DNA of 64,000 nt from IMG/VR virus record IMGVR_UViG_3300044641_004856, positions 1 through 64,000 of that record; one strand, 5' to 3'. Made by a program: the position numbers and the translations under genes. Each line of letters begins with the position of its first letter. Position 1 is the stretch's first letter. The DNA is from a virus. Below are positions 3,405-39,069 of this stretch, one piece after another. The notes beneath the pieces were generated by a model. It saw only the letters and a list, made by a program, of their open reading frames with translations, ran no database searches and was not told where the DNA came from.

Positions 3405-3686
3405 ATGAATAAAGCAGCACTCGAATCGTACTTACGCAATTTACTTGGTCAAGTAATTGCAGCAGTAATGATTGTTATGCAAACAAGCAACGCAGCAACA
3501 CCTTTGGACTTTGGACAATCTGAATGGCTACTCGTAGCAAACGCTCTATGGGGTTCACTAATCCCAACAGCACTACGTTGGGCTAATAAGAAGGACCCAG
3601 CCTTTGGTCGTCTTGCAGAAGTTGCAGCAAAAGAAGTTTCAAAAAAACTTGCTACAAAGCCAGTAAAGTCAGTTAAAAAGAAGTAA
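3405..3686 (+). CDS. putative holin
   Basis: The 93-residue protein is read from the ATG at 3405, six bases after AGGAG; an ATG at 3399 abuts that site and is unlikely. A hydrophobic helix (about residues 14-27) and a second one (about 41-56) are followed by LRWANKKDPAFG, a pattern common in small holins of actinobacterial phages, and by a Lys-rich tail. The arrangement of two membrane segments with a basic C-terminus fits a pore-forming holin. No endolysin gene lies beside it in the window. Confidence 0.6.
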   Translation: MNKAALESYLRNLLGQVIAAVMIVMQTSNAATPLDFGQSEWLLVANALWGSLIPTALRWANKKDPAFGRLAEVAAKEVSKKLATKPVKSVKKK

Positions 3687-3706
3687 CTACAAAAAGGACC
3701 CTAGAA

Positions 3707-4075
3707 ATGTCGAAGATAGAAACTATTTCAATTCTTGTTGGAATCGCGTTAGGAGGCGGGGCAATTCTAGGGTTCTTTATAAACAAACTTAATAAGTTGT
3801 TTGCAACGTGGGGAAAATTTATTAGAGACTGGGAAGGGGAAGAGGCTTCTGAAGGTAGAGATGCTGTTCCAGGGGTTATGGCTCGTCTTAATAAACTTGA
3901 TGGCGAACTCTCTCACAATGGAGGTAAGTCTATAAAAGACATGGTTTTCCGCATGGAGGTCAGGCAAGACCGCTTAGAACGTAAGATGGAAGAAGCAGAG
4001 ATTGTCCGCCAACAGAATCAAGTTATTTTACTTGAAGCAATAAAGACGCTTAACACACAAATACAGCCAAAGTAG
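3707..4075 (+). CDS. membrane-anchored coiled-coil protein (DUF2746-like)
   Basis: 122 residues: an N-terminal membrane helix (ILVGIALGGGAILGFF), then a soluble part with an acidic stretch, a LNKLDGELSHNGGKSIKD motif and a C-terminal coiled coil. This layout matches the small membrane proteins (DUF2746 type) encoded next to holins in actinobacterial phages. A second holin or a lysis regulator is the likely role, inferred from neighbours. AAAGGA lies nine bases before the ATG. Confidence 0.55.
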   Translation: MSKIETISILVGIALGGGAILGFFINKLNKLFATWGKFIRDWEGEEASEGRDAVPGVMARLNKLDGELSHNGGKSIKDMVFRMEVRQDRLERKMEEAEIVRQQNQVILLEAIKTLNTQIQPK

Positions 4076-4089
4076 GGAAAAATACTCTT

Positions 4090-4692
4090 ATGGCCCTAAA
4101 TCAAATTCAGTTCGGTGCTCCCCCAGGTGGACCAGGAGCAGACATTGTTGCACGTATCGGTGGTCTTGTTAACAAAGGCATCGAAGGCAAAAAAAATTCT
4201 CAAGGTAATGCACAGTCAATTGTTGCACAGCACGTTTTATCTAGTGTTCGTGCCGAAAGACAACACGGTTATGACTTAGAGAAGATGGGTGTAAAGCACT
4301 CACAAACTCGCGAACTTCAAGATGCTGGAGTTGCTGCAAAAGCAGCCTCTGAAAAAGCAGGTCGTCGTCACGAAACACGCATGACAAGGTTAACTCAAGG
4401 ACATGAGATTGCAAAAATGGGAGCAGCCTTCGCTGGCATTGGTCAGTTAAGTGAAAGCGGGAAAGTTGCTGAGTTTAAAATTGGTGACATGAGTGGAAAG
4501 TTTAACGCTCCTCGTGAAACACCAGCACCAGTTGCTATGCCAACTGTTCCAGATACAACACCTCCTCCTGTAACTTCTACACCAAGTGCTTCTGGTGGTC
4601 GCGTAGGACGTGACCCAAAGACAGGTCGTGCCGTAAGTTTAAAGAGTTCAACCCCACCTCCAGCAAAAAGAGCAACGGGTAAAAAGAAGTAG
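4090..4692 (+). CDS. hypothetical protein, Ala/Lys-rich
   Basis: A 200-residue protein of unknown function. It begins with QIQFGAPPGGPGADI, continues with a charged helical middle (residues 40-130) and ends in a Pro/Ser/Thr-rich and then Lys-rich tail (RATGKKK). It lies in a tight run of small genes after the holin-like set. The helical middle with a disordered tail suggests a minor virion component, but nothing identifies it. Confidence 0.6.
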   Translation: MALNQIQFGAPPGGPGADIVARIGGLVNKGIEGKKNSQGNAQSIVAQHVLSSVRAERQHGYDLEKMGVKHSQTRELQDAGVAAKAASEKAGRRHETRMTRLTQGHEIAKMGAAFAGIGQLSESGKVAEFKIGDMSGKFNAPRETPAPVAMPTVPDTTPPPVTSTPSASGGRVGRDPKTGRAVSLKSSTPPPAKRATGKKK

Positions 4693-33223: not shown

Positions 33224-34747
33224 ATGGCAGTTTATAAAAGACCAGGAATTTACATCAGTGAAGTCCTGCTCCCTGCTCCAATTACTAACTCCATAACAGC
33301 ACAGGCTGCTGGTATGGTCGCTGCACCATTTGCCCAAGGACCAACAACATTAACCTTGGTTAACTCATGGTATGAATTTACAAAGCATTTTGGTGGTTAC
33401 AATTCATTGTTCCCAGCCACATTTGCTGTCTCTCTCTTTTTCCAAAATGGTGGAAGAGAGTTGTATGTTAAAAGAATTATGGGCCAAACAGCACAGGCTG
33501 CAACTGGCGTAGTTCCTCGTGCTTCTGGTGCTGGAACTGTTTTAACACTAACTGCAAAAAATAAAGGAACTGACGGTAATAACTACCGCGTTCAAATGTC
33601 AAACGGAACTGCTGTTGGAAACTCTCTAAATATTGCTATTTACAAAGAGGGAGTTCCTGGAACTTCTACTAGCATTCAAGACGATATTTTAGTTGAACAG
33701 TACGACAACGTTTACACAGATGAACCACTTTCTAATAGTTACGCACCAACAGTGATTAACTCAGTTTCACAACTTTTTACTTGTACTGTTAGTGATAACA
33801 CAAACCTTCCAAGTGTTAACGTTGTGCCATTTACTGGTGGAACTAATGGAAATGCAATAATTGATACCGACTACTCTAGTTCAACAGATGGCGTAATTGC
33901 ATCCATTGCAACTATTGACCGTCCTTTGGTAGTGTTTTTACCTGGTCTTTATGATTTGTTGACCGCAAACGCAGCAACACAAATTCAACTTGATGTTGCT
34001 GCTGCATGTGAGAGTTCACAAAAGAACTTCTACGTTGGAGAAACTCAAAAAGACCGTACAGTTACACAAGCGTTGACTACTGCCGATTCACTTGGTGGTG
34101 GTAGAAGTTTTGCTGCTGTTTACTATCCTCACGTATTTGTTTCTGACCCTCTTGGTGTAGCCACAGGTGCTACACGTAAGGTAGGTCCTGCAGGTGCAGT
34201 TGCTGGTTTGTTCTTAAGAACTGATGCAACTGTTGGTCCATTCAAAGCCCCTGCTGGTTTAACAGCAAACCTTGTTGGAGTTGTTTCTACAGAAAAGACA
34301 TTTACTACTACTGAGTTAGATACTTTAAACTCAAGTAAGTATCCAATTAACCCTATTCGTCAAATCCCAGGTGCGGGTATCTCAGTAATGGGTGCACGTA
34401 CTCTGCTACAGGACGGAACAGCAAACAAGTATGTAAATATGCGTCGTTCTCTTATTTACATCCGCAAGAGTTTGCAAAACCTAACAGAGTTTGCGCTATT
34501 CGAAAATAACAATGAGCAGTTGTGGGGTCGTATTACTACAACCCTTAACACCTTCTTAAATGAATACCGCAATCAAGGAGGATTACGTGGAAATTCTCCA
34601 TCAGAAGCGTACTTTATTAAGTGCGACGCTGAAAACAATACTGCTGCCTCTATCGCTAGTGGCGAAGTTCGCATCGAAGTCGGTGTGGCTTTGCAGTACC
34701 CTGCGGAATTCGTGGTTATTAACCTTAGCCAGAAGACCTTAAACTAA
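33224..34747 (+). CDS. tail sheath protein
   Basis: 507 residues with an AGGAG site. The start AVYKRPGIYISEVLLPAPI and the middle FAQGPTTLTLVNSWYEFTKHFGG...FFQNGGRELYVKRIMG are the hallmark of contractile sheath proteins. The C-terminal third (IPGAGISVMGARTLL...YVNMRRSLIYIRKSLQN...NTFLNEYRNQGGLRG) matches the polymerising core domain. Subunits wrap the tube and contract on infection, driving the tube through the host wall. A beta-rich insert at about 100-230 probably faces outward. Confidence 0.95.
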   Translation: MAVYKRPGIYISEVLLPAPITNSITAQAAGMVAAPFAQGPTTLTLVNSWYEFTKHFGGYNSLFPATFAVSLFFQNGGRELYVKRIMGQTAQAATGVVPRASGAGTVLTLTAKNKGTDGNNYRVQMSNGTAVGNSLNIAIYKEGVPGTSTSIQDDILVEQYDNVYTDEPLSNSYAPTVINSVSQLFTCTVSDNTNLPSVNVVPFTGGTNGNAIIDTDYSSSTDGVIASIATIDRPLVVFLPGLYDLLTANAATQIQLDVAAACESSQKNFYVGETQKDRTVTQALTTADSLGGGRSFAAVYYPHVFVSDPLGVATGATRKVGPAGAVAGLFLRTDATVGPFKAPAGLTANLVGVVSTEKTFTTTELDTLNSSKYPINPIRQIPGAGISVMGARTLLQDGTANKYVNMRRSLIYIRKSLQNLTEFALFENNNEQLWGRITTTLNTFLNEYRNQGGLRGNSPSEAYFIKCDAENNTAASIASGEVRIEVGVALQYPAEFVVINLSQKTLN

Positions 34748-34767: not shown

Positions 34768-35376
34768 ATGGCATTCGTAGATAAAAACAGGTCAAGTCTT
34801 GCGACTGACCCAATTAGAAACTTTAGGTTTTTGGTCAGATTTCTTCCTCTGAACTCAAATGACACTAATCTTTCTGATTTAAGTACAGCAACTATGGGCT
34901 TTACTTCAGTTTCAGGAATGGCTGTAACCACAGACTCTATTCCTTATCGTGAAGGTGGCTACAATACTACTGTTCACCAAATTCCTGGACAAACTTCTTT
35001 CCAGCCAGTTACTCTTCAAAGAGGCGTACTTATTGGAAATAAGCAAGGCTGGAACTGGATGAAGAACATGTTCTACACAGTTCAAAATGGTGGAAACAGA
35101 ACTATCAATCAAAACTTCCGTTGCGATATTGAAATTTCTGTTCTTCCACACCCAATATCAAATCAAACAATTGCTGCAGGTGCACAAGAAGACACTGCAA
35201 TGAGGTTTAAGTTTTACAACTGCTGGCCTACAGCAATTGCTTACTCAGACCTTAACGCTGGTGACAACTCTCTCCTTGTTGAACAAATGACAATGGTGCA
35301 TGAAGGATTCGATACATCGTTTGCTTCATTTGATGCTGCTAAGAAGTTTGTTTCTGCACCAGCAGTTGACGCGTAA
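34768..35376 (+). CDS. tail tube protein
   Basis: 202 residues. FRFLVRFLP, GFTSVSGMAVTTDSIPYREGGYNTTVHQIPGQTSFQPVTLQRGVL and FKFYNCWPTAIAYSDLNAG are the conserved blocks of gp19-type tube proteins, which stack as hexamers inside the sheath. It follows the sheath gene, the standard order. AAGGAG lies upstream with a somewhat long spacing. Confidence 0.92.
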   Translation: MAFVDKNRSSLATDPIRNFRFLVRFLPLNSNDTNLSDLSTATMGFTSVSGMAVTTDSIPYREGGYNTTVHQIPGQTSFQPVTLQRGVLIGNKQGWNWMKNMFYTVQNGGNRTINQNFRCDIEISVLPHPISNQTIAAGAQEDTAMRFKFYNCWPTAIAYSDLNAGDNSLLVEQMTMVHEGFDTSFASFDAAKKFVSAPAVDA

Positions 35377-35399: not shown

Positions 35400-36206
35400 A
35401 TGACTACTCAAACCGTAAAAGCATCTGAAAATCCAGACCTTGTAAACCAAATGGTTGCCCAAGCACTGGCCGAACCTGAAAAACAACAAGAATCAGTTGT
35501 AGTTACTCCTCCTTCTGATGTTCACGTTACTCTCCCTGGCGGATTTATAAATTCTGCTGGGGAGAGTGTGACAACAGTTGAGGTTCGTGAATTAACTGGA
35601 AAAGACGAAGAAGCAATTGCAAGAGCACAGAATCTTGGCAAGGCTCTTCTACAAGTACTAAGCCGTGGAACTGTCAAAATTGGAAAAGAACCTGCTACTG
35701 AAGATGCACTAGATGCAATGTTGGCTGGCGACAGAGATGCTGTCATGCTAGGTATCTACAAAGCAACTTTTGGTAATACACCAGAACTACAAGGTTTTTG
35801 TGGCGGATGCAACGCATTTAAGCCAGTTACCATTAACCTAAATGAAGATATTAAAGTAAGAACTTTAGTAGATGAGCCTAGTTTTGTTGTAAACGCTAAA
35901 TGTGGAGAAGTAGTGGTTACCCTACCAACAGGTTACTGTCAAAAAGAGTTAGTGAATAACTCAGATAAAACTATGTCTGAGTTGACAACGATTCTTCTTG
36001 AGAACTGCATTCTTAAGATTAACGGTCGTCCCGTTATTAGTAAAGGACAGATTCAAAACTTAGGCATTAGTGACAGACGCTTAATTGGCGAAGCAATTAA
36101 TAAACACGCAATTGGCCCAGTTTTTGAAGATATTTCAGTTACTTGTCCTGACTGCGAAGGTGAGGTAAACACTCCTATTAACTTAGGAAGTTTGTTTCGC
36201 TTTTAA
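35400..36206 (+). CDS. tail assembly chaperone, short form
   Basis: 268 residues between tube and tape-measure genes, where tail assembly chaperones lie. The chain has VTTVEVRELTGKDEEAIARA and FGNTPELQGFCGGCNAF, with two CxxC pairs (CGGC and CPDC) that would hold zinc, as in myovirus baseplate/chaperone proteins of the T4 gp26-like group. It ends in CGC-TTT-TAA. Just beyond, the +1 frame stays open for 46 more residues, so a longer form is likely. These chaperones coat the tape measure while the tube polymerises. Confidence 0.8.
   Translation: MTTQTVKASENPDLVNQMVAQALAEPEKQQESVVVTPPSDVHVTLPGGFINSAGESVTTVEVRELTGKDEEAIARAQNLGKALLQVLSRGTVKIGKEPATEDALDAMLAGDRDAVMLGIYKATFGNTPELQGFCGGCNAFKPVTINLNEDIKVRTLVDEPSFVVNAKCGEVVVTLPTGYCQKELVNNSDKTMSELTTILLENCILKINGRPVISKGQIQNLGISDRRLIGEAINKHAIGPVFEDISVTCPDCEGEVNTPINLGSLFRF
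36201..36206 (+). other. predicted +1 programmed frameshift site (UUU-UAA)
   Basis: The zero-frame Phe codon TTT (36201-36203) is followed by stop TAA (36204-36206). Slipping forward one base lets the same tRNA re-pair perfectly with TTT at 36202-36204, and translation continues from AAA at 36205. A slow stop codon in the A site and a slippery P-site codon are the classic +1 arrangement, as in the release-factor-2 gene. Confidence 0.7.
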
Positions 36207-36345
36207 AATTTCTCAATATCCAGTTTTGATGGCTGAATGGTTAGCCTTATCAGAGAGACATCAAGGATGGACCCTTACTGAAATAAAAGAACTTTCAGTA
36301 AGAGAACGAAAAAATTGGTTAGAACTTGCTAAAGAAGGTTACTAA
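36205..36345 (+). CDS. tail assembly chaperone frameshift extension
   Basis: In the +1 frame 46 codons run from 36205 to the TAA at 36343-36345, ending nine bases before the tape-measure ATG. The peptide KISQYPVLMAEWLALSE...GWTLTEIKELSVRERKNWLELAKEGY is helical with conserved-looking aromatics, as in the second part of gpG/gpT-like chaperones. The only internal ATG (36229) has no ribosome site, which favours frameshifting. The fusion would be 314 residues. Confidence 0.65.
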   Translation, partial: KISQYPVLMAEWLALSERHQGWTLTEIKELSVRERKNWLELAKEGY

Positions 36346-36354
36346 GGAGTTGAC

Positions 36355-39069
36355 ATGGCAGAATTAAACGATTCGTTAAAACAAACCGACGAATTGTTAT
36401 CCAGCATTGTCAAAAGTCTGACCTCTGCTGAGCAAATAACTAAACGCCTTGAAGGTTCTATGGGTGGAGTTGCTGGAAAAGCAAAGTCTGCTAAGGGTGG
36501 TGGTGACCGACATATCGGTACGGGTCAACATAGCCAAATGCCACACATGGACAAAGTAACTTTTAGTGGACAAGAAAAAGTTGATAGCACTGCAGAAATT
36601 GCTATGCGAGAGGGTATGGAGGCCACTAGATATGGCTTAACCCCTACTCGTGGTCAAAAATTATTGGGAGTTGGTCAAGGACTTGCACAAGCAACCTTTG
36701 GTATTGCTGCTGGAGCAATGGCTGCAATGCCAGGAGTTGCCGAAGTTGGTGCAAGTGCTGGTAACTATTACGGAGCATCTATTCGTTCTAATATGAGCCG
36801 TACTTCAATAATGAATGCCACTTTTGGTGGTTTAGCAGGTGGAGTTACGAGCACTCTTTCTTCTTCAAATATTGCAAGTATTGCTGCAGCAAGAGGCATT
36901 ATGCCAGGAAGTGCTCAATACAATGCTTTAGTTGCAGATGTTGGTGGTGCTGCACGGTATATGAACATGGCAAATGAAAACGCTATGGTTGCCATGTCTG
37001 GTTTTACTCAAGGAGACTTTTCCTCTCGTTTATACAACATTGGTGTTAGCACTTACGATTCAAAAACTGGTAAGGCTCGAGGCCAAGATGAAATTTTTGG
37101 TCAACTCTACGGTCGTCTCACTCAAGGTCAAGGAAAAATGAGTGTAGAAGAGACTATGAATAGTTTTCAAGCAGGTGGTTTTAACAAAGCAGTTACTGAT
37201 TTAGGAATGACAGAAGACCAAAGACAACTTTTTATGCAATATTCTGTTGATAGAGCAGCAGGAAAACCAACTGATTTATCTAAACTAGGGTACGGACAAA
37301 ATCCTCTAGCGGATAAAATGCGTATTACCGCATCTGATACATCGGTTTTAAATACGTACACCGAACCCGTATTAAAAGGACTTAAAGCAGCAGCCGATTT
37401 AATTGAGACCACAGTTAATCCTGCATTAGAAAAATTGGCTGGTACTGCAGGAGTGGCATCAGGATTTTTAGGTGGTATGGGTGAATCACGTGCAGGAATG
37501 GGCATGGGTATCGCTGGTGGTGGAATTGTTCAAGGATTGATGACTGCTGGTGGTGCTTTCTTAGGTGCTAAAGGTGCTCAAGGTCTTTTAGGCAAAGGCG
37601 GTTCTAGTGGGGTTAAAGCAGGAGGTTTTAAAGGTCTTTTAGGAAAAGCAGGACTTGCTGGATTAACCTACATGGGATTAGAGCAAGTACAAAAGTTTTT
37701 TAACAAAGCAGATGTTCCAGATGAAATGCGTTATATCGCAAACCTTTTATTTGACGCAGGTCAAGGTGGGTTGACTGGATTAGCAACAGGAAACCCTTAT
37801 GCAGCCCTTGCTGGTACAGTCGCAGGCACTGCTGGTGGTGTTGCAAACCCTTACGGTGGTAAAGGCGGTGGTACTCCAGGATTTGGTGCTGCTTTTGGTT
37901 CTAGTGGCGTAAATAGTGCAAACCCCTCTTCACCAATTACTAATGGTGGTGTAGGAACACCTTACGGTGCTACGGGAAGTTTATGGTCTGGGGGAAGTCA
38001 CACAGGTCAAGATTACCCATGTGCTGTTGGAACTCCTGTTCACGCATCATTAGGTGGAATGGTTATTAATACAAACCCTGGTTCAGATTACGGTAAAACT
38101 GTAGAAATTGACCACGGAAACGGTTATCAAACTTTGTACGGACATTTATCGGAAGTACTGGTCAAAGTTGGAGACACTGTTACGCAAGGACAGTTAATTG
38201 CAAAAAGTGGTGACACTGGAAAAGTTACAGGTCCTCACTTGCACTATGAAGTACGTAAAGGAAAAAATAACCCAGTAAATCCTGATGAATTAAGCAAAGC
38301 AGGAGGTTCTGGTTTAGCAGGAGTTCTGGGTGCAAGTGGCAATAATGGAACATCTACTAACGGGCAACAGTTATCGGCTATGGTTGGTTCTAAATCTTTA
38401 CAAGAATTACTAAGTGGGGGTATAGGAAATCTTCCTGCTGAACTTTTGGGTAGTGCTAGTAGTAGTAGTGCTACAAGTGGTGGAGCAAAGGTAATCCTTG
38501 GAACTGGTAGTGAAAAAGAATGGGCTACTGGTCTTCTTCAAAAAATGGGTGCTCCAGTCAGTGATGCTTCTATAAATGCTCTTACTACATGGATGCGTCA
38601 TGAAGGTGGACACTGGAAAAACTCTGCTCACTACAATCCTTTAAATACCACATTAGACATGAGTAACAATGAGTCTATGAATAGTGTGGGAGTAAAACGC
38701 TACAAATCTTGGGAAGAAGGATACGCAGCAACTATAGGAACGTTGACAGGAAAAAATGCTGGGGACCGTGGGTATACAGCAATTGTAGATGCTTTAAAGT
38801 CAGGTGCTTCGACAGATGCTATTTTAGCAGCAGTAAATAACTCAGCATGGATGACTGGTAAAACGGGAAAAAACCCTTATAAGTTCCAAGGTGGAGGCTC
38901 ACCTTCAGTTGCAACACTTAACTCTTCAGCAGGACTAAATATATCTCCGTCTATCACAATTAATGTAAGCGTTCAACAAGCATCTTACGCTGAGGCTATG
39001 AGTCTTGTTGAAATTGTTAAAACTCAACTTGAAAAAGAAAATTTACTTAGAATAGTAGGTGGGAAATAA
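36355..39069 (+). CDS. tape measure protein with M23 peptidase and lysozyme-like domains
   Basis: 904 residues after an AAGGAG site. The first 480 are helical and Gly/Ala-rich with hydrophobic stretches (GIAAGAMAAMPGVAEVG, GLLGKAGLAGLTYMG). Residues about 535-650 form an M23 endopeptidase with H549-x3-D553 and H628-x-H630 as zinc ligands and the fold motif YGKTVEIDHGNGYQTLYGHL. Residues about 715-845 form a lysozyme-like domain (TTWMRHEGGHW, Glu750 as likely acid; HYNPLNTT). It sets tail length and then digests peptidoglycan as the tube enters. The gene overlaps the next by one base. Confidence 0.85.
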   Translation: MAELNDSLKQTDELLSSIVKSLTSAEQITKRLEGSMGGVAGKAKSAKGGGDRHIGTGQHSQMPHMDKVTFSGQEKVDSTAEIAMREGMEATRYGLTPTRGQKLLGVGQGLAQATFGIAAGAMAAMPGVAEVGASAGNYYGASIRSNMSRTSIMNATFGGLAGGVTSTLSSSNIASIAAARGIMPGSAQYNALVADVGGAARYMNMANENAMVAMSGFTQGDFSSRLYNIGVSTYDSKTGKARGQDEIFGQLYGRLTQGQGKMSVEETMNSFQAGGFNKAVTDLGMTEDQRQLFMQYSVDRAAGKPTDLSKLGYGQNPLADKMRITASDTSVLNTYTEPVLKGLKAAADLIETTVNPALEKLAGTAGVASGFLGGMGESRAGMGMGIAGGGIVQGLMTAGGAFLGAKGAQGLLGKGGSSGVKAGGFKGLLGKAGLAGLTYMGLEQVQKFFNKADVPDEMRYIANLLFDAGQGGLTGLATGNPYAALAGTVAGTAGGVANPYGGKGGGTPGFGAAFGSSGVNSANPSSPITNGGVGTPYGATGSLWSGGSHTGQDYPCAVGTPVHASLGGMVINTNPGSDYGKTVEIDHGNGYQTLYGHLSEVLVKVGDTVTQGQLIAKSGDTGKVTGPHLHYEVRKGKNNPVNPDELSKAGGSGLAGVLGASGNNGTSTNGQQLSAMVGSKSLQELLSGGIGNLPAELLGSASSSSATSGGAKVILGTGSEKEWATGLLQKMGAPVSDASINALTTWMRHEGGHWKNSAHYNPLNTTLDMSNNESMNSVGVKRYKSWEEGYAATIGTLTGKNAGDRGYTAIVDALKSGASTDAILAAVNNSAWMTGKTGKNPYKFQGGGSPSVATLNSSAGLNISPSITINVSVQQASYAEAMSLVEIVKTQLEKENLLRIVGGK

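Follow-up and report, generated by a model that had tools for sequence, protein, structure and literature searches.

Long-tailed phages other than T4 conserve the G-T frameshift known from lambda gpG and gpGT (Atkins et al. 2016, PMC5009743). T4-like phages have been reported to possess a short gene and a long one instead (Vladimirov, Gautam and Davidson 2022, Virology 566:9-15, as cited in PMC10885494 and PMC12846349), and the PRFect study (PMC10885494) likewise describes one short and one long gene in some T4-like phages. Here we describe the tail assembly chaperone gene at positions 35400-36206 of a 64,000-nucleotide stretch of viral DNA (positions 1 to 64,000 of IMG/VR record IMGVR_UViG_3300044641_004856; hereafter the window), which is part of a 92.9-kb virus record that is possibly itself a fragment. 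A +1 slip at UUU_C, just upstream of the stop codon of this gene, very probably yields a long form of the chaperone. Comparison of related sequences shows the homology, the frame, the selection, the invariance of UUU_C and the lack of a general start for a separate gene; the slip, its efficiency and the division of labor between the two forms we infer.

Several +1 shifts provide a background for this site. The shift at UCC_UUU_CGU that produces influenza virus PA-X was established by mass spectrometry (PMC3498833), and a shift at UUU_CGN in plant amalgaviruses was inferred (PMC5052127). Six HF1-group haloviruses have been proposed to shift +1 at TTT-CGC in their chaperone genes (PMC7230728); we confirmed TTT_CGC near the stop in the HF2 sequence, which reads TTT CGC AGA TAG. 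In bacteria, Listeria phage PSA shifts +1 at CCC_UGA and prfB at CUU_UGA (PMC5009743). A preliminary description of the window had proposed a shift of this last kind, at UUU-UAA, with the stop codon in the ribosomal aminoacyl (A) site.

A conserved UUU_C site near the end of the chaperone gene

The zero-frame open reading frame (ORF) ends TTG TTT CGC TTT TAA. In the +1 frame, 46 open codons run from 36205 to a stop at 36343-36345, nine bases 5′ of the ATG of the tape-measure gene at 36355. Since a TAG at 36184-36186 closes the +1 frame upstream, a shift into that frame is confined to 36187-36206. This stretch holds two perfect +1 slips, TTT_C at 36195 (TTT to TTC) and TTT_T at 36201 (TTT to TTT at the stop). 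The preliminary description had read the end of the zero frame and the open +1 frame correctly, base for base, and the TTT-to-TTT slip is indeed perfect in the window; it had overlooked the second perfect site, two codons upstream, which proved to be the only conserved one. Relatives were compared because a single sequence cannot separate the two slips. The final set comprised 168 loci, corresponding to 82 representatives at <85% identity.

An in-frame TTT followed by C was present near the zero-frame stop in 168 of 168 loci, including phages of 60-68% G+C that hardly use TTT. From -33 to +33, the columns T, T, T and C were the only fully invariant ones (2.00 bits) among the representatives. 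The codon after TTT was CGC in 30, CGA in 12, CTC in 10, CAG in 9, CAA, CGT and CGG in 6 each, CTT in 2 and CCG in 1. These A-site codons fall into the classes CGN (54), CAR (15), CTY (12) and CCG (1) and encode R, Q, L and P, with the C always kept. AGR or TTR codons never occupied this position, though they make up 19% of the Arg and 22% of the Leu codons in the same genes. A control phenylalanine (Phe) codon in the TFG motif was TTT in 46 cases and TTC in 22, with TTC throughout in G+C-rich members, compared with 78 TTT and 0 TTC at the slip site. In a Terracoccus provirus, none of the 68 other Phe codons is TTT, yet the slip site is TTT. The product of the TTT fractions across representatives is 10^-40, a value that exaggerates the rarity because the sequences are related.

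The TTT that precedes the stop behaved differently. If slow termination drove tRNA-Phe to slip from UUU to UUU at UUU_UAA, as in prfB, re-pairing would be perfect in the window as in its close relatives, with the stop codon supplying a known pause; such a slip could add to the shift in that clade. Across the representatives, however, the last sense codon took 16 forms, with TTC in 35 representatives, CTC in 22 and TTT in no more than 4. The stop moved between the second and the seventh codon after TTT_C (third in 53, fourth in 25, seventh in 2, sixth in 1 and second in 1) and changed identity (TAA in 34, TAG in 27 and TGA in 21). Three pairs are kept after a +1 slip in 82 of 82 representatives at TTT_C, versus 4 of 82 at the last sense codon, where two pairs are kept in 40, one in 31 and none in 7. 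In one locus (L002), 100% identical up to the site, an A-to-T change turns TAA into TAT and leaves TTT_C and the +1 frame intact, although this is a single contig and a sequencing error is possible. A Shine-Dalgarno signal like that of prfB is also absent. We therefore consider it improbable that UUU_UAA is the site that generates the long form. Judged from these alignments, the slip site in the preliminary description was misplaced by six bases: neither the TTT before the stop nor the position of the stop is conserved. That description had called for an alignment of relatives, in which the open +1 frame proved to be conserved throughout and TTT-TAA did not. Relatives without the slippery codon, which it had named as evidence against its proposal, were found for UUU-UAA, whereas UUU_C, six bases upstream, is present everywhere. 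The two sites predict different junctions, ...GSLFAFKISQ... for UUU_C and ...GSLFRFKISQ... for UUU_UAA, and in the window phage the predicted Glu-C junction peptides are VNTPINLGSLFAFKISQYPVLMAE and VNTPINLGSLFRFKISQYPVLMAE, respectively.

Selection on the +1 extension

The +1 extension was open in all 168 loci and carried a motif resembling GW.L.EI..L..RER..W, or in extended form EW..L....GW.L.EI..L..RER..W. The ratio of nonsynonymous to synonymous changes (pN/pS) was 0.16 for the extension (183 pairs, which are not independent) compared with 1.94 and 1.20 for the same bases in the other two frames. These values indicate that the extension is under purifying selection, with conservation far beyond chance; an open frame of 46 codons would by itself be weak evidence. 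The +1 direction given in the preliminary description thus agrees with the comparison, and so does its view of the 314-residue fusion as the long form, which is under selection. The long form joins 35400-36197 to 36199-36345 and has 314 residues with either slip site.

The second frame might instead be a separate gene, translated by coupling from TTG 36226 or ATG 36229. These start codons are present in the window, and GenBank annotates the extension as a separate hypothetical gene in GiJojo (gp83) and LuckySocke (gp91); in pSt2308 it is unannotated. Against this, no Shine-Dalgarno sequence precedes TTG 36226 or ATG 36229 in the window, so that the start with a ribosome site that would have spoken against a fusion was not found. 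Many relatives have no ATG, GTG or TTG ahead of the conserved part of the extension (L025, L032, L040, L047, L058, L060, L078 and others). The +1 frame already shows conserved residues (YP.LM) 5′ of the putative start, and a separate gene would leave the invariance of UUU_C without a reason. Because several representatives lack a start codon and the window lacks a ribosome site, a separate gene is no general solution, while a +1 shift is; we regard independent initiation as highly improbable.

Transcriptional slippage, or a -2 ribosomal shift, would lead into the same frame, since -2 and +1 cannot be told apart by frame, and an outgroup locus (L193) does have a T8 run. The invariant element is just three T residues and a C, though, which is too short for polymerase slippage, and a -2 shift would require tRNA-Phe to re-pair on NTT, a pairing that most members do not allow. 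Either event seems very unlikely to account for the extension. Taken together, the comparative data strongly support programmed +1 frameshifting in this tail assembly chaperone gene.

Proposed mechanism and sequence context

Most ribosomes would continue to the TAA and produce the 268-residue short form. In a minority, tRNA-Phe would occupy UUU 36195-36197 in the peptidyl site, with TTG 36192-36194 in the exit site and the C-starting codon CGC (36198-36200) in a vacant A site. The tRNA, with anticodon GAA, would then move one base forward, from UUU to the better codon UUC (36196-36198), which places GCT 36199-36201 in the A site. Reading would go on as GCU UUU AAA AUU and so forth to give the 314-residue long form with an additional C-terminal domain. 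The nearby downstream stop would serve to terminate the short form and would lie outside the slip site. On the model of lambda gpG/gpGT and T4 gp26/gp51, coating of the tape-measure protein would fall to the short form, and recruitment of the tail tube protein to the extra domain of the long form.

Several observations weigh against a slip at UUU_C as the whole account. Downstream RNA structure as a stimulator had a mean z of -0.77 versus -0.79 for in-gene controls. Upstream Shine-Dalgarno-like pairing had a mean duplex energy of -3.8 versus -2.6, with strong sites in 20% versus 16%, so that such an element would contribute weakly at most. An in-frame TTT_C occurs 42 times in the window genes (18,512 codons), 41 of them besides the slip site. 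The TTT_TAA site of the window is itself slippery and may contribute.

Because of these 41 other occurrences, TTT_C alone would be insufficient for efficient slipping, and context must matter. The codon in the exit site is mostly YTG or YTA, and YTR_TTT_CR occurs once among the codons of the window genes, at the slip site. The A-site codon is rarer than its synonyms only as a tendency (synonymous frequency 0.26 versus 0.39 expected). In-frame TTT_C is depleted in the window genes (C follows TTT in 42 of 485 cases versus TTC in 60 of 173; P=2e-14), which may reflect either avoidance or a general codon-pair bias.

The chaperone belongs to the T4 gp26/gp51 family

Sequence matches place the product of the gene at 35400-36206 among the tail assembly chaperones of the T4 gp26/gp51 family; the preliminary description had likewise named it a tail assembly chaperone. 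PF12322 (T4 base plate protein) matched the zero-frame protein with E=3e-12 and 47.2 bits, above the gathering cut-off of 24.5, and the gene lies between the tube and tape-measure genes. The protein contains the CxxC motifs C134/C137 and CPDC at 252-255. Its AlphaFold model had a predicted local distance difference test score (pLDDT) of 89.6 and matched T4-like baseplate hub assembly proteins in BFVD (E about 1e-18); the top PDB match was the HK97 tail assembly chaperone, with probability 0.95 and an E-value of 0.2, which is not significant.

T4 gp26 and gp51 are both members of PF12322 (8.8e-64 and 3.9e-52) and are clear paralogues of one another (E=6.7e-22), gp51 being longer by ~46 residues at its C terminus. 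In hhalign, the fused-protein profile of the 82 representatives aligned with gp51 over its whole length, including the extension (236 columns, probability 84%, E=7.4e-6), whereas its alignment with gp26 stopped at the Phe of the shift site (E=3.4e-5). A broader profile was needed for this alignment; a small first gp51 profile aligned only locally. The extension on its own matched gp51 weakly (E 0.033), and with the fused protein as query, the Pfam and PHROGs matches still stopped short of the extension.

The locus and its relatives

The tail genes of the window are ordered sheath, tube, chaperone and tape measure and are of the contractile-tail type (Table 1). The order tube, chaperone, tape measure recurs in GiJojo, BRock, LuckySocke, pSt2308 and SP-15. 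The 92.9-kb record contained one match to the chaperone query, and no tRNA genes were found in the window. In BRock, the gene at the position equivalent to the tape-measure gene with the M23 domain is annotated as an endolysin.

Table 1 Features of the tail gene region, in window coordinates
Feature	Position	Strand	Evidence or remark
Tail sheath gene	33224..34747	+	PF17482 2e-10; phrog_23 2e-50
Tail tube gene, T4 gp19 family, upstream neighbor	34768..35376	+	PF06841 E=1.5e-27
Zero-frame ORF, tail assembly chaperone short form (TAC-N), 268 aa	35400..36206	+	PF12322, phrog_150 baseplate hub
Putative +1 slip site UUU_C	36195..36198	+	Invariant in 168/168 loci
+1-frame extension of the long form, beginning AFK-ISQYP	36199..36345	+	Conserved +1 frame; aligns to T4 gp51 C-terminal part
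TTT TAA, slip site of the preliminary description; here last sense codon and short-form terminator	36201..36206	+	Not conserved
Zero-frame stop TAA	36204-36206	+	
Tape-measure gene by position, downstream neighbor; M23 peptidase domain at residues 548-643	36355..39069	+	PF01551 1e-31; tape-measure PHROGs, e.g., phrog_10030

Relatives were collected in several searches. A first viral scan gave 80 loci, and a second with the family profile gave 80 more distant ones. A bacterial genome scan contributed loci, mostly apparent proviruses, in assemblies of Saccharothrix, Streptomyces, Actinomadura, Terracoccus and Nonomuraea and in a metagenome-assembled genome (MAG) labeled Bacillota, and a phage collection added the cultured Streptomyces phages BRock, GiJojo, LuckySocke and pSt2308. 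Fragments, one degenerate locus (L186) and outgroups were left out of the final set. A caveat is that the site was located as an in-frame TTTC ≤11 codons from the stop; every locus had exactly one such site, and the sites align at the conserved Gly-x-Leu-Phe. The outgroups L190 and L193 served as queries in two more viral scans, neither of which yielded anything. The degenerate locus, in Streptomyces sp. AP-93 (3668-4678), is a PF12322 gene without TTT_C and without an extension; it lies near an integrase gene and resembles a prophage remnant.

Distant relatives and possible alternative routes to two chaperone forms

More distant relatives, all of them single examples, hint at differences in how the Phe hinge is used and the extension joined. 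In Bacillus phage SP-15 (2414-3154), the chaperone gene ends GAA TTT TTT CAC ... TAA and is followed by an open 66-codon +1 extension, the two being annotated as separate genes; the UUU_C shift probably recurs in this distant phage. In Pseudomonas phage Paride (2384-3238), a related chaperone gene contains AGT TTT TTC close to its end, and the extension, of 69 codons, lies in the -1 frame; this is likely an unannotated classical -1 frameshift at U_UUU_UUC. In an Acidobacteriales MAG (stop near 4691), a PF12322-type gene has a C-terminal extension in the -1 frame at a T8 run, likely reached by a -1 shift or by transcriptional slippage. A Nitrospira MAG carries the extension domain within the chaperone ORF itself (ending near 4679), in frame and without a frameshift (fused profile E=5e-17). 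Chaperone and extension are separate ORFs in Phosso and LR756511.

These examples suggest a wider pattern, for and against which we see the chances as evenly balanced: PF12322 chaperones may share a conserved Phe hinge whose U-run shifts in either direction (+1 at UUU_C with an almost free A-site codon; -1 at U_UUU_UUC or T8) and which is replaced by in-frame fusion in the Nitrospira MAG or by gene duplication in T4. If so, UUU_C would be a general bacterial +1 signal that requires no stop and no rare arginine codon. The place of the gene within the T4 gp26/gp51 family itself links "one gene plus frameshift" and "two genes" as alternative routes to the same pair of short and long chaperones. 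The constrained bases are the UUU and the next C, while the A-site codon, the stop codon and the distance to the stop are free. The cultured phages BRock, GiJojo, LuckySocke and pSt2308 would carry an unannotated UUU_C shift. This is apparently the first large comparative bacterial case of the UUU_C +1 class, a class that influenza PA-X had led Firth et al. (2012) to predict; we found no description of UUU_C shifting for this phage family in the literature, although open-access coverage was incomplete and novelty is not proven.

Comparison with known frameshift systems

T4 gp26 and gp51 are the closest counterparts in protein terms. The N-terminal domains are homologous, the C-terminal segment of gp51 aligns with the +1 extension, and both systems would make a short and a long form, but T4 does so with two in-frame genes and the UUU_C phage family with one gene and a +1 frameshift. 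This reading of gp26 and gp51 agrees with Vladimirov et al. 2022; it is already known, and we do not claim it as new. Lambda gpG/gpGT and P2-type systems are alike in lying between the tube and tape-measure genes and in having a frameshifted long form in minor amount (PMC5009743), the minor amount being a prediction for the present family. They differ in using -1 shifts on tandem slippery heptamers and in belonging to other protein families.

As for the shift itself, PSA and prfB resemble the predicted shift of the UUU_C phage family in the +1 direction, in bacteria and near a stop, but in the family 1 to 6 sense codons separate the stop from the slip site. The features of the stop-codon class (prfB, PSA tsh) were not those of the family, in which perfect re-pairing before the stop is confined to the 4 of 82 representatives noted above and Shine-Dalgarno pairing is little above control. 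Influenza PA-X and the amalgaviruses share the site: UUU in the peptidyl site is followed by C, and tRNA-Phe re-pairs with UUC. These viruses have eukaryotic hosts and a CGN A-site codon, whereas the phage family is bacterial and has CGN, CAR, CTY or CCG in the A site; the window conforms to CGN, but the family as a whole does not (54 of 82). Influenza virus thus uses the same tetranucleotide as the one proposed here for a phage family that occurs in actinobacterial hosts.

The HF1-group haloviruses are alike as tailed viruses with a proposed +1 shift at TTT_CGC near the stop of a chaperone gene. They differ in their archaeal hosts, in number (six genomes) and in a chaperone without detectable similarity to that of the UUU_C phage family (hhalign probability 0.5%). 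Because of this lack of similarity, HF2 and the actinobacterial phage family probably arrived at the same tetranucleotide independently.
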